The translations under genes were made by a program, and so were the position numbers. Below the pieces are notes generated by a model, which did no database searches, was not told the origin of the DNA, and was given only the letters and a program-made list of their open reading frames with translations. From Porphyromonas sp. oral taxon 275 (GTDB taxonomy: Bacteria > Bacteroidota > Bacteroidia > Bacteroidales > Porphyromonadaceae), in contig NZ_CP072333.1 of NCBI RefSeq assembly GCF_018127745.1, positions 2,108,001 through 2,172,000 on the forward strand: DNA of 64,000 nucleotides, read 5' to 3'. Shown in pieces: positions 29,417-33,221 of the stretch. Each line of letters starts with the position of its first letter. Position 1 is the first letter of the stretch.

Positions 29417-29463
29417 AGCCCGAGTACTCCCCACTGTCACAGGAGGGAGTACTCGGGCTTTTA
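29417..29463 (+). terminator. Intrinsic terminator after spt
   Basis: A perfect 15-bp stem (AGCCCGAGTACTCCC and complement), a 13-base loop and TTTAT. Confidence 0.85.
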
Positions 29464-29465
29464 TC

Positions 29466-29473
29466 TATCTTTG
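29466..29473 (+). promoter_or_regulatory. -7 box TATCTTTG of the ecotin-like gene
   Basis: It lies 31 bases before the start at 29505, directly after the spt terminator. Confidence 0.65.
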
Positions 29474-29504: not shown

Positions 29505-30449
29505 ATGGACTATAGATCACAGCCGTTCGTGCTGACGCTGATGGTGCTCCTACTCGTCGTGGCGGGCAGCTGCCGCACGACTCGCGAGGGGCAGGAGGAT
29601 AAGCTCGACTCCATCCCCGAGCAGGAGCTTCGCTATGACGAGCCTAAGGCCACGCTGCCCGAAGGTATGCACCTGGTGCGCCTGCGTGAGCTCTCGCCCA
29701 AGGACGACTACCGCCTCGAGCTCATCCCACTGGTGCGCAACGAGCATCCCGAAGGCCTCTACCGCCTCGAGGGGCGCCTCGTCTCTAGCGACCCCTGGCA
29801 GGGGATCAATCACTACAGCTACGAGGGTGCCAGCCAGCCGACCTCGTGCGCGCTGCGCCCCAATGCCCCCGAGACCTTCCGCCGCTATGCCCTGGGCGAA
29901 CCGCTTCTGCTGCCCCTCTTGGGCAACCAGCAGCTCGTCCTCCAGCCCCGTGATTCCGTCGCCATAGGCCTCCGATACTGGAAGGCCGTCGGTGCCGTCA
30001 CGGATCTGAAGCCCTCGACCGAACTCGAGCGCCGCGCCCCTAAGGAGGGCTACCGCGCCTATGAGTTCACCGCCCCGCGGCCCCGCCATGAGGACGACCC
30101 CGAGGAGTACTATATCGAGCTCATCCCGAGCAAGCGTATGAAGGTGGACTGCAACATCCATCTGCTGCGCGGACGCTTCGAGCTGGAGCGCGACGGCACG
30201 CCCGATCACCTCAGCTATACCTTCCTCTCCGATGGGTCGACGATGTCCACGCGCATGGGCTGCCCCGACGGCTCGCTCACCGAGAAGCTCATCCGGCATA
30301 CGGGCCTCATCGTACTGCGCTGGGCGGGCAGTGGCTTGCAGATCTACGTGCCCGAGGGCTTCGTCATGCGCTACCGCCTCTACCGACCCGATGGGCAGCT
30401 GAGCCCCGTCACGCCGCTGCCTAAGTCGAAGCCGCAGCCCAAGCACTAG
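29505..30449 (+). CDS. Lipoprotein with two ecotin-like protease-inhibitor domains
   Basis: A lipoprotein signal ends at Cys23 (VVAGSC). Residues about 175-305 match ecotin well: YIELIPSKRMKVDCNIHLLR (E. coli VELLIGQTLEVDCNLHRL), STRMGCPDG (E. coli STMMACPDG) and LQIYVPEGFVMRYRLYRPDG (E. coli IVVYTPDNVDVKYRVWKAE). C216 and C253 match the ecotin disulfide, and R250 falls at the P1 site, predicting inhibition of Arg-cleaving serine proteases. Residues about 54-158 look like a second, degenerate copy (YRLELIP, YRLEGRL, CALRPNA, IGLRYWKAVG) that lacks the disulfide partner. The alignment is from memory. The sulfatase gene follows 51 bases later. Confidence 0.72.
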   Translation: MDYRSQPFVLTLMVLLLVVAGSCRTTREGQEDKLDSIPEQELRYDEPKATLPEGMHLVRLRELSPKDDYRLELIPLVRNEHPEGLYRLEGRLVSSDPWQGINHYSYEGASQPTSCALRPNAPETFRRYALGEPLLLPLLGNQQLVLQPRDSVAIGLRYWKAVGAVTDLKPSTELERRAPKEGYRAYEFTAPRPRHEDDPEEYYIELIPSKRMKVDCNIHLLRGRFELERDGTPDHLSYTFLSDGSTMSTRMGCPDGSLTEKLIRHTGLIVLRWAGSGLQIYVPEGFVMRYRLYRPDGQLSPVTPLPKSKPQPKH

Positions 30450-30500: not shown

Positions 30501-32351
30501 ATGCCTCATCGCCTGCTGTACCGCATCCCCCCACGCCTTCGCTATCTCCTCTGCCTCAGTAGTGTGCTGCTCGGGCTCTTCGCGCTGGCGAAGCTCGCCT
30601 TCCTCCTCTACACCCGTCCCCCCGCTTCCTCCCTATCGCTCGCCGCGGTGGGACAAGTGCTCGTGCACGGCTTCAGCCTCGATCTGGCGGTGCTGGGCTA
30701 CCTGCTGGTGCTCCCGCTGCTGCTGGTGGCGGGCTCGCTGCTGAGGCCTGAGGTGGCGGCTAGGCGCCTGCTGCGTCCCTATCACCTCTTCCTGGCGCTT
30801 CTCCTCCCACTGATCCTCCTCGTCGACGCGGGGCTCTACCCCTACTGGGGCTTCAAGCTCGACGCGACGATCTTCCAGTACCTCGATCACCCTGCTGCTG
30901 CCGCGGCGAGCGTCTCGCTGGGCTTCATCCTCGCGGCGCTGCTCCTGTACCTCGCCCTAGCGCTGGGGCTGTACTGGATGCTCCAGCGCTGCAGTGCGGA
31001 GCGCTGGCTGCGGGGGCGGCGCCCAGTGCTTGCAGCCCTCGGCTACCTACTGCTCCTCGCTCCCTCCTTCGTAGCGATACGCGGGGGGCTGGGCAAGTCT
31101 ACGAGCAATGTAGGCCAAGTCTACTTCAGCCAAGATCCGTGGCTCAACCACGCCGCCGTCAATCCCGTCTTTAGCTTCGTCTCCTCGCTGGCGCATGTCG
31201 AGGATCTCGATGCCGAGTACAATGCCTTCGGCGAAGAGGAGCGCGCACGGCTCGTGGCGGGGCTCTATCCTGCGGCGGATGACCCGCTCACCGATACGCT
31301 CCTGCGCGTGCAGCGCCCCAATGTGCTGCTGATTATTATGGAGAGCTTCGGTGCGCGCTTCGTCGGGAGCTTCGGGGGGGACGCCGCCGTCTCGCCGCAG
31401 CTCGACCGTCTGGCGCGTGAGGGCGTACGCTTCGAGCGCTGCTATGCCAATAGCTACCGCACCGACCGCGGTACGGTCTGCCTGCTCAGTGGCTACCCGA
31501 GCTTCCCCCGCCACTCGGTGATGAAGATGCCCGCCCAGCTGCGTAGCCTCTCGGGGATCGCGGCGGAGCTGCAGCGCGTCGGCTATACGACGGACTTCGT
31601 CTACGGCGGGGATGCCAACTTCACCAATACCAAGGGCTACCTCCTCGGATCGGGCTACCAGCGTGTGACGGACGTCACGGGGCTCTCCAGCTCGCTCCCG
31701 CGCAATAGCTGGGGCGTACATGACGAGGCGACCCTCGACTATGTCTACCAGCAGATCATCTCCCGCCCGAAGGGCAAGCCCTGGCATATCGGCCTGCTGA
31801 CCCTAAGCAGCCATGAGCCCTGGGACGTGCCCTATCAGCGCCTCGAGGGCAAGGAGCGCAATGCCTTCGCCTACCTGGATGCCCAGCTGGGGCGCTTCGT
31901 TGACCGCCTCAGGCAGCGCCCCGAGTGGCAAGACCTGCTCATCATCTGCGTCGCCGACCACGGCTACCACCGAGCCGAGGATGCGGGTTCGCGCCACGGC
32001 CTCGCCACCCACCACATCCCCATGCTCTGGCTGGGCGGAGCGCTACGCGGCCCTCGGAGTTTCGACCAACTGATGACGCAGACCGATCTGGCGGCCACGC
32101 TGCTGGCGCAGCTGGGCCTCAGCGCCGAGCGCTTTGCCTTCAGCCGCAATGTGCTGGGGACAAGCTATCGCTATCCCTTCGCCTACTATACCTTCAATGA
32201 CGGCTTCGCCTATATCGACAGTACGGGCTACTCGGTGGTGGACAACGCCACTGGGCAGTGCATCGAGGAGGCGGGCGCGGGAGCCGAACTGCGGCGTGCC
32301 CGCGGCCGTGCTTTGCTCCAGACGAGTTATGACGATCTAGCCCGCCGCTAA
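30501..32351 (+). CDS. LTA-synthase-like membrane sulfatase/phosphotransferase
   Basis: The 616-residue protein has five N-terminal membrane helices (residues about 15-195) and a C-terminal alkaline-phosphatase-fold domain. NVLLIIMESFGARFVG holds the first metal ligand, YRTDRGTVCLLSGYPS the catalytic threonine, and VADHGYHRAED the Asp-His pair. Such proteins move phosphoglycerol or phosphoethanolamine onto glycans, lipids or lipid A. The substrate cannot be read here. It probably shares a transcript with the ecotin-like gene and ends at the terminator at 32416-32452. Confidence 0.85.
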   Translation: MPHRLLYRIPPRLRYLLCLSSVLLGLFALAKLAFLLYTRPPASSLSLAAVGQVLVHGFSLDLAVLGYLLVLPLLLVAGSLLRPEVAARRLLRPYHLFLALLLPLILLVDAGLYPYWGFKLDATIFQYLDHPAAAAASVSLGFILAALLLYLALALGLYWMLQRCSAERWLRGRRPVLAALGYLLLLAPSFVAIRGGLGKSTSNVGQVYFSQDPWLNHAAVNPVFSFVSSLAHVEDLDAEYNAFGEEERARLVAGLYPAADDPLTDTLLRVQRPNVLLIIMESFGARFVGSFGGDAAVSPQLDRLAREGVRFERCYANSYRTDRGTVCLLSGYPSFPRHSVMKMPAQLRSLSGIAAELQRVGYTTDFVYGGDANFTNTKGYLLGSGYQRVTDVTGLSSSLPRNSWGVHDEATLDYVYQQIISRPKGKPWHIGLLTLSSHEPWDVPYQRLEGKERNAFAYLDAQLGRFVDRLRQRPEWQDLLIICVADHGYHRAEDAGSRHGLATHHIPMLWLGGALRGPRSFDQLMTQTDLAATLLAQLGLSAERFAFSRNVLGTSYRYPFAYYTFNDGFAYIDSTGYSVVDNATGQCIEEAGAGAELRRARGRALLQTSYDDLARR

Positions 32352-32460: not shown

Positions 32461-33221
32461 AGGGTCGCCCCTGTAGGGCTCTTGGTTCTTATTCGCTCTG
32501 CTCCCCAGGGTTTGGTCGCCCTTGCAGGGCTCTTTGTTTTTTTATTCTCTCCGCTACCCAGGGTTTGGTCGCCCTTGCAGGGCTACGCACCCTGGGCTTT
32601 GGAGGGATCGCCCCTATAGGGGCTTTGCTCCCTTGTCTACAGGCTGGAAGGAAGCAAGGCGGGAGTACATCCCCAGCCGCGCTTGGGAGAAAGGTTTAAC
32701 GGCTGTGCCAGTTGGGGTGCGAGGCAGCTCGTACGCTCCCCGAATATGCTTTATCGTGCTACAGCTCGCCGCTCCGCTAGGAGGGTCGCCCTTGTAGGGC
32801 TCTTTGTTTTTTTATTCCCTCCGCTACCCAGGGTTTGGTCGCCCTTGCAGGGCTACGCACCCTGGGCTTTGGAGGGATCGCCCCTATAGGGGCTTTGCTC
32901 CCTTGTCTACAAGCTGGGTAGAAGCACGGTAGGAGTACATCCCCAACCGCTCTTGGAAGAAAGGCTTAACGGCTGCCAGTTGGAAGGAAGCAAGGCGGGA
33001 GTACCTCCCCAACCGCGCTTGGAAGAAAGGCTTAACGGCTGCCAGCTGGAAGGAAGCAAGGCGGGAGTACCTCCCCAACCGCGCTTGGAAGAAAGGTTTA
33101 ACGGCTGTGCCAGCCCCAGCGGGGCGACCCAGTCAAAGCCCAGGGTGCGTAGCCCTGCAAGGGCGACCAAACCCTGGGTAGCAGAGCGAATAAGAACCAA
33201 GAGCCCTACAGGGGCGACCCT
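32461..33221. repeat. 761-bp non-coding composite element with 71-bp terminal inverted repeats
   Basis: The ends 32461-32531 and 33151-33221 are inverted copies that differ at about one base. Inside are further copies of the same building blocks: CCCAGGGTTTGGTCGCCC, GCAGGGCTACGCACCCTGGG and TCGCCCCTATAGGGGCT, plus a 66-bp tandem repeat. Each block contains a small GCCC...GGGC palindrome. Open frames here are short and change with the repeats, so I treat it as non-coding. No transposase is inside. Confidence 0.8.
32911..33109. repeat. 66-bp tandem repeat inside the composite element
   Basis: Two close copies start at 32977 and 33043 (the second with a slightly changed end), with a more diverged copy before them and another related copy at about 32641. 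Each runs from TGGAAGGAAGCAAGGCGGGA to AAGGCTTAACGGCTGCC. As 66 is a multiple of three, false protein repeats appear in several frames. Confidence 0.8.

Follow-up and report, generated by a model that had tools for sequence, protein, structure and literature searches.

The gene at 29505..30449 on the + strand of the window (the whole 64-kb stretch of DNA that was analysed) encodes a tandem ecotin, with two ecotin-fold domains in one chain and an arginine at P1 of the second. Ecotin itself is a soluble homodimer with a general-purpose methionine at P1. The tandem protein is predicted from its sequence to function as a protease inhibitor, and we put at about 60% the probability that it is a lipid-anchored, single-chain ecotin pseudo-dimer inhibiting trypsin-like (Arg/Lys-specific) S1 serine proteases. 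The gene and the parts of its product are laid out as follows.

29505..30449, + strand: gene for the tandem ecotin, a probable lipoprotein of 314 residues (open reading frame; 58 bits against Pfam Ecotin; full-length relative P0001, 95% identical)
29505..29570, + strand: predicted signal peptide, residues 1-22, with the lipobox VAGS-C at its end (hydrophobic stretch, lipobox-like Cys)
29571..29573, + strand: C23, predicted lipid-modified cysteine
29574..29636, + strand: probable flexible tether, residues 24-44 (pLDDT below 50 over residues 15-44)
29637..30017, + strand: N-terminal ecotin domain (domain 1), residues ~45-171, without the disulfide and without the STxM loop
29895..29933, + strand: residues 131-143, GEPLLLPLLGNQQ, including the loop of domain 1 that corresponds to the 100s (secondary-site) loop of ecotin
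30036..30422, + strand: C-terminal ecotin domain (domain 2), residues ~178-306
30150..30152, + strand: C216, counterpart of ecotin Cys50 (alignment; Cys in 14 of 14 rows)
30246..30263, + strand: inhibitory (80s) loop S248-T249-R250-M251-G252-C253, with C253 the counterpart of Cys87
30252..30254, + strand: R250, predicted P1, corresponding to ecotin Met84 (pairs with residue 84 of the M84R mutant 1ezs in the alignment)

The whole protein scored 58 bits against Pfam Ecotin (PF03974; cut-off 22.2), mainly through domain 2, and showed the ecotin fold that this family describes. The initial annotation had expected an ecotin profile match; this was obtained for the C-terminal half alone (49.9 bits) but not for the N-terminal half, which stayed below the cut-off (11.9 bits, E 0.23). 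With a home-made ecotin profile the N-terminal halves of the relatives P0004 and P0007 gave 17.3 and 18.7 bits. Domain 1 is strongly diverged in sequence, and its ecotin fold was predicted confidently; structure models gave this fold for both halves. Thus the tandem of two ecotin domains proposed in the initial annotation is borne out by profile, alignment and structure models together. Against the NCBIfam equivalog model for the serine protease inhibitor ecotin, NF002987, the score was 47.2 bits, under the cut-off of 162, so the protein is not an equivalog of classical ecotin.

Domain 2 is the intact half. It has a complete substrate-like 80s loop with arginine at P1, a 50s loop and both disulfide cysteines, and the cysteines and STxM loop that had been noticed in this half were found there as C216, C253 and STRM. 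Conservation was followed in a group of 14 rows assembled by similarity (the window protein, P0001 and P0003-P0014) and referred to here as the Porphyromonas group, Porphyromonas names being carried by P0001 and P0009. The features just named for domain 2 are shared by every row of the group. P1 of domain 2 is arginine in 13 of these rows and lysine in one, in agreement with the earlier assignment of R250. According to PDB entry titles, structures exist of engineered M84R ecotin bound to factors XIa and Xa. Domain 2 can be aligned to ecotin chains as far as residue 142, and so the dimer arm may be present.

Domain 1 had been described as a degenerate copy without the disulfide, and this description holds throughout the group: the P1 loop is absent in all 14 rows and the cysteine pair is missing. 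The packing of the two domains was judged from pTM and secondary structure only, not from coordinates or PAE. In the model of the full protein the arm of domain 1 forms short strands or bridges (166-167 and 170) that are absent from the model of domain 1 alone. These strands and the overall pTM are compatible with arm-to-arm pairing like that of the ecotin dimer, and on these models it is plausible that the two domains form the dimer inside a single chain.

In ecotin numbering the primary site comprises residues 51-54 and 84, and the secondary site residues 67-70 and 108-113 (PMC7773321, accessible part). Mean entropies of these loops were calculated from 10 thinned rows of the Porphyromonas group, in an alignment that omits insertions; the 10-14 rows share ancestry, and the values are to be read with that in mind. 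In domain 2 they were 0.34 (50s), 0.30 (80s), 1.52 (60s) and 0.95 (100s) against 0.83 overall, and the fractions of equal-length windows of the alignment at or below these values were 0.18, 0.12, 0.88 and 0.66, respectively. The corresponding entropies in domain 1 were 1.69, 2.04, 1.37 and 0.50 against 1.27 overall (fractions 0.74, 0.95, 0.53 and 0.09). This indicates that the primary loops are guarded by domain 2 and the 100s loop by domain 1.

The consensus of the domain-1 100s loop is PFRGNK. Its arginine is kept in 12 of the 14 rows; the window protein, with PLLGNQ, and P0001 have leucine instead. The domain-1 60s loop showed no conservation (percentile 0.53). The E. coli secondary-site motifs, W67-G-Y-D70 and R108-Y-N-S-K112, which are typical of the family although Pfam does not demand them, were intact in none of the 14 rows in either domain; what is left are single residues, for example G68 in four domain-1 rows and Asn110 in four and Arg108 in one of the domain-2 rows. 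The loop pattern matches an arrangement in which a single protease would be held through the primary site of domain 2 together with the domain-1 secondary site. We infer such a shared grip and go no further, because the 60s loop of domain 1 is at odds with it, the residues are not those of E. coli ecotin and the loop of the window protein lacks the arginine.

A lipid anchor had also been proposed, and the lipobox VAGSC is indeed found at residues 19-23. By a simple in-house rule, used in place of a dedicated predictor, a lipobox-like cysteine occurs in 56 of 59 tandem proteins as against 2 of 77 single ecotins. The 59 tandems were the 14 proteins of the Porphyromonas group, P0017, P0018 and 43 others among the database matches listed. 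Of the three without a lipobox, P0053 and P0060 are chains that start late and P0017 simply has none. Every group relative of at least 290 residues (P0001 and P0003-P0014, 13 in all) has the cysteine; P0002, P0015 and P0016, which are shorter and possibly cut or internally deleted, were left out of the scoring. The window protein is, therefore, probably a lipoprotein.

In Capnocytophaga and Bacteroides an acidic run sends lipoproteins to the cell surface, while the signal in Porphyromonas is not defined in the accessible part of the same source (PMC5080379). The sequence after C23 (RTTREGQED) contains neither K-(D/E)2 nor an S-acidic run. Of the 11 SusD proteins of the same genome, 10 have a lipobox by the in-house rule, and these likewise lack K-(D/E)2, so nothing firm about the side of the membrane follows.

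In the mechanism that we favour, the protein would be tethered to the outer membrane and R250 of domain 2 would fill the S1 pocket of an approaching protease as a substrate does, tightly and reversibly. The role of the second ecotin monomer would fall to domain 1, which would pack by way of the C-terminal arms and contact the protease through its 100s loop. Each chain would then be monovalent and grip a single protease, whereas an ecotin homodimer binds two. The targets would most likely be foreign, from the host or the surrounding community, and of the trypsin, plasmin, kallikrein, clotting or complement type.

Domain 2 might instead be the sole inhibitor, pairing with domain 2 of a second chain, with domain 1 serving as no more than a spacer or relic by which it is raised above the membrane. 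The missing P1 loop and cysteine pair of domain 1 in all 14 rows would suit this arrangement, as would the possible dimer arm of domain 2. Against it stand the confidently predicted fold of domain 1, the good conservation of its 100s loop and the presence of the tandem layout in all 13 relatives of at least 290 residues (P0002, P0015 and P0016 being shorter). We regard this alternative as unlikely, though deserving serious consideration. Far less probable is that the gene is decaying, the function of domain 1 having been lost and the protein being on its way out. The strong divergence of domain 1 and the 32 of 38 family genomes without an ecotin match, some of them incomplete, could be read in that way; the frame is nevertheless open, and the primary loops are near-invariant in four species at ~40-46% protein identity.

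It is also conceivable, though improbable, that the protein faces the periplasm and controls a protease of its own cell, such as the genome's one trypsin-family protein, presumably HtrA-like, rather than foreign ones. That protein was the one match in the genome to PF00089, the sole S1 family searched. The stretch beginning at C23 (CRTTREGQED) has no export signal of the Capnocytophaga/Bacteroides type (PMC5080379, accessible part), which would agree with a periplasmic position, but the SusD lipoproteins of the genome lack K-(D/E)2 as well and the part of that source available leaves the Porphyromonas signal undefined. Moreover, endogenous proteases are not targets of E. coli ecotin, as far as the accessible text of PMC9904509 goes, and the retained P1 arginine loop suits trypsin-like enzymes.

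Among 38 genomes of the same family, six have an ecotin match: five are tandem (the window's own genome, G002, G011, G013 and G012) and one is single (G029). The other 32, some of which are incomplete, gave no ecotin match. In the tandems of G011 and G013 the threshold was reached by domain 2 only. A search for further tandem ecotin lipoproteins in Porphyromonas had been recommended, and tandem ecotins are present in four species: that of the window, P. catoniae ATCC 51270 (G002), P. sp. oral taxon 278 (G013) and P. pasteri (G011). In the wider samples, own genome included, ecotin matches were found in 6 genomes out of 393 from the order and in 5 out of 395 from the phylum, those outside Porphyromonas being single-domain frames. 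The single protein of G029 (L002, 1384-2430, + strand) consists of one ecotin domain with methionine at P1 followed by a C-terminal extension of ~185 residues.

A search of the protein database with a profile made from five single Bacteroidota ecotins returned 3064 proteins, of which 120 were listed. Of those listed, 77 are shorter than 200 residues and 43 are at least 290 residues long, and all 43 long ones have two ecotin domains; the matches listed favour tandems, since the scores of two domains add up. The layout had been called unusual, which is true in comparison with E. coli ecotin, but with 43 of the 120 listed matches being tandem it is no one-off. The few tandems among the matches listed that carry names come from Dysgonamonadaceae and Bacteroidales. 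Bridging tandems, in which both domains are intact, are the protein of G012 (92.5 and 71.6 bits), its near-identical twin P0017, and P0018 (130.8 and 146.0 bits).

The P1 residue in the 77 single ecotins among the matches listed is Met in 62, Leu in 11 and Arg in one, and could not be read in three. In the 43 listed tandems, domain 1 has Met in 35, Gln in four and Arg, Leu, Asn and Lys in one each, and domain 2 has Arg in 40 and Met, Glu and Lys in one each. P0017 has Leu and Arg in domains 1 and 2, and P0018 has Arg in both. Thinning to below 60% identity left 12 of 45 tandems (the 43 listed, P0017 and P0018), of which nine have Arg in domain 2; domain 1 has Met in three, Gln in three, Leu in two, Arg in two, Asn in one and Lys in one. 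At 60% the 77 listed single ecotins form five clusters (Met in three, Arg in one, Leu in one), so that the contrast in P1 between singles and tandems rests on few lineages. The methionine of ecotin has been termed 'one-size-fits-all' (PMC6944378, accessible part). One single-domain ecotin with a natural P1 arginine (STRMAC) was seen in an uncultured Apibacter (L016, 7803-8312, + strand). Another single ecotin, L080 of G427, has glutamine (STQMAC), and methionine is therefore not universal among the single ecotins of Bacteroidota. P0019, a tandem of 305 residues, reverses the usual order, its domain 1 having the P1 arginine and its domain 2 a methionine; its place in the tree suggests a separate duplication.

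E. coli ecotin (PF03974, MEROPS I11) shares with the window protein the fold of both domains and, in domain 2, the 80s loop, the 50s loop and the equivalents of Cys50 and Cys87. It differs in that here two domains lie in one chain with a lipobox, the natural P1 is Arg and not Met, domain 1 has no inhibitory loop and the secondary-site motifs are replaced in both domains. Engineered ecotin M84R (1ezs, 1xx9, 1p0s) has the P1 arginine in the same loop, but it is a laboratory product based on the soluble E. coli protein, whereas here the residue is natural and kept in the family. Leishmania ISP3 also has an ecotin-like domain within a protein of more than twice the size, its second half being a domain of unknown function and not ecotin (PMC9904509, accessible part). 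Tandems of Bacteroidales and Dysgonamonadaceae, such as P0022 ('ecotin family protein'), P0040 ('hypothetical protein') and P0048 ('ecotin'), share with it a lipobox-like cysteine, two ecotin domains and mostly arginine in domain 2; unlike the window protein they have an intact domain 1, with Met in 35 of the 43 listed.

The literature search, whose reach excluded most subscription papers, turned up neither a title nor an abstract dealing with tandem or lipid-anchored ecotins, and the window protein is one member of a broad tandem class for which that search found no description. It is possible, and we propose it tentatively, that lipid-anchored single-chain pseudo-dimers form a widespread undescribed class in Bacteroidota, with heads that often differ in P1 (Met/Gln and Arg), and that oral Porphyromonas have split the labour, each domain contributing a single site (the primary in domain 2, the secondary in domain 1), to give a monovalent, Arg-specific inhibitor. 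Where the P1 residues differ between the two heads, each head of a molecule could bind a different protease at the cell surface. A natural class of this kind, with fused heads, a membrane anchor and a preferred arginine, would allow the primary- and secondary-site roles of ecotin to be separated within one chain, and would suggest that trypsin-like proteases threaten these bacteria specifically. It also illustrates cleanly how, after an inhibitor has been duplicated, the reactive loop of one copy can be lost while the fold stays.

The gene upstream encodes a PLP-dependent enzyme (Pfam Aminotran_1_2), which we take to resemble serine palmitoyltransferase. In the four Porphyromonas species the ecotin gene directly follows this same aminotransferase-fold gene. 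No ecotin was found in the stretches around the ortholog of the upstream gene in 14 other family genomes, and the tandem of G012 lies away from that ortholog. Two features were noted in the gap that separates the ecotin gene from its upstream neighbour.

29418..29458, + strand: 14-bp inverted repeat with a 13-base loop and a short T-run, probable terminator (by eye)
29466..29473, + strand: TATCTTTG, weak candidate promoter, matching TAnnTTTG

A terminator scan gave no sites, the scanner's loop limit being 8 bases as against the 13-base loop here. By eye, all four species have an inverted repeat in this gap, but a clear T-run was seen only in the window. From these repeats, a separate transcript for the ecotin gene is likely. 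TAnnTTTG is, we assume, the Bacteroidota -7 box consensus; its match may be due to chance, as there are 17 on the + strand of the window, and none was seen in the equivalent gaps of the other three species.

Downstream lies a gene for a sulfatase-fold membrane protein (30501-32351, + strand). At the ecotin loci of the other three species tblastn gave no match to this protein at 1e-5, so the surroundings on the downstream side are not the same in all species. Beyond the sulfatase-fold gene, tandem DNA repeats with units of 53 and 66 bp occupy 32463-33107 of the window, and the small open reading frames in this region look like artefacts of the repeats.
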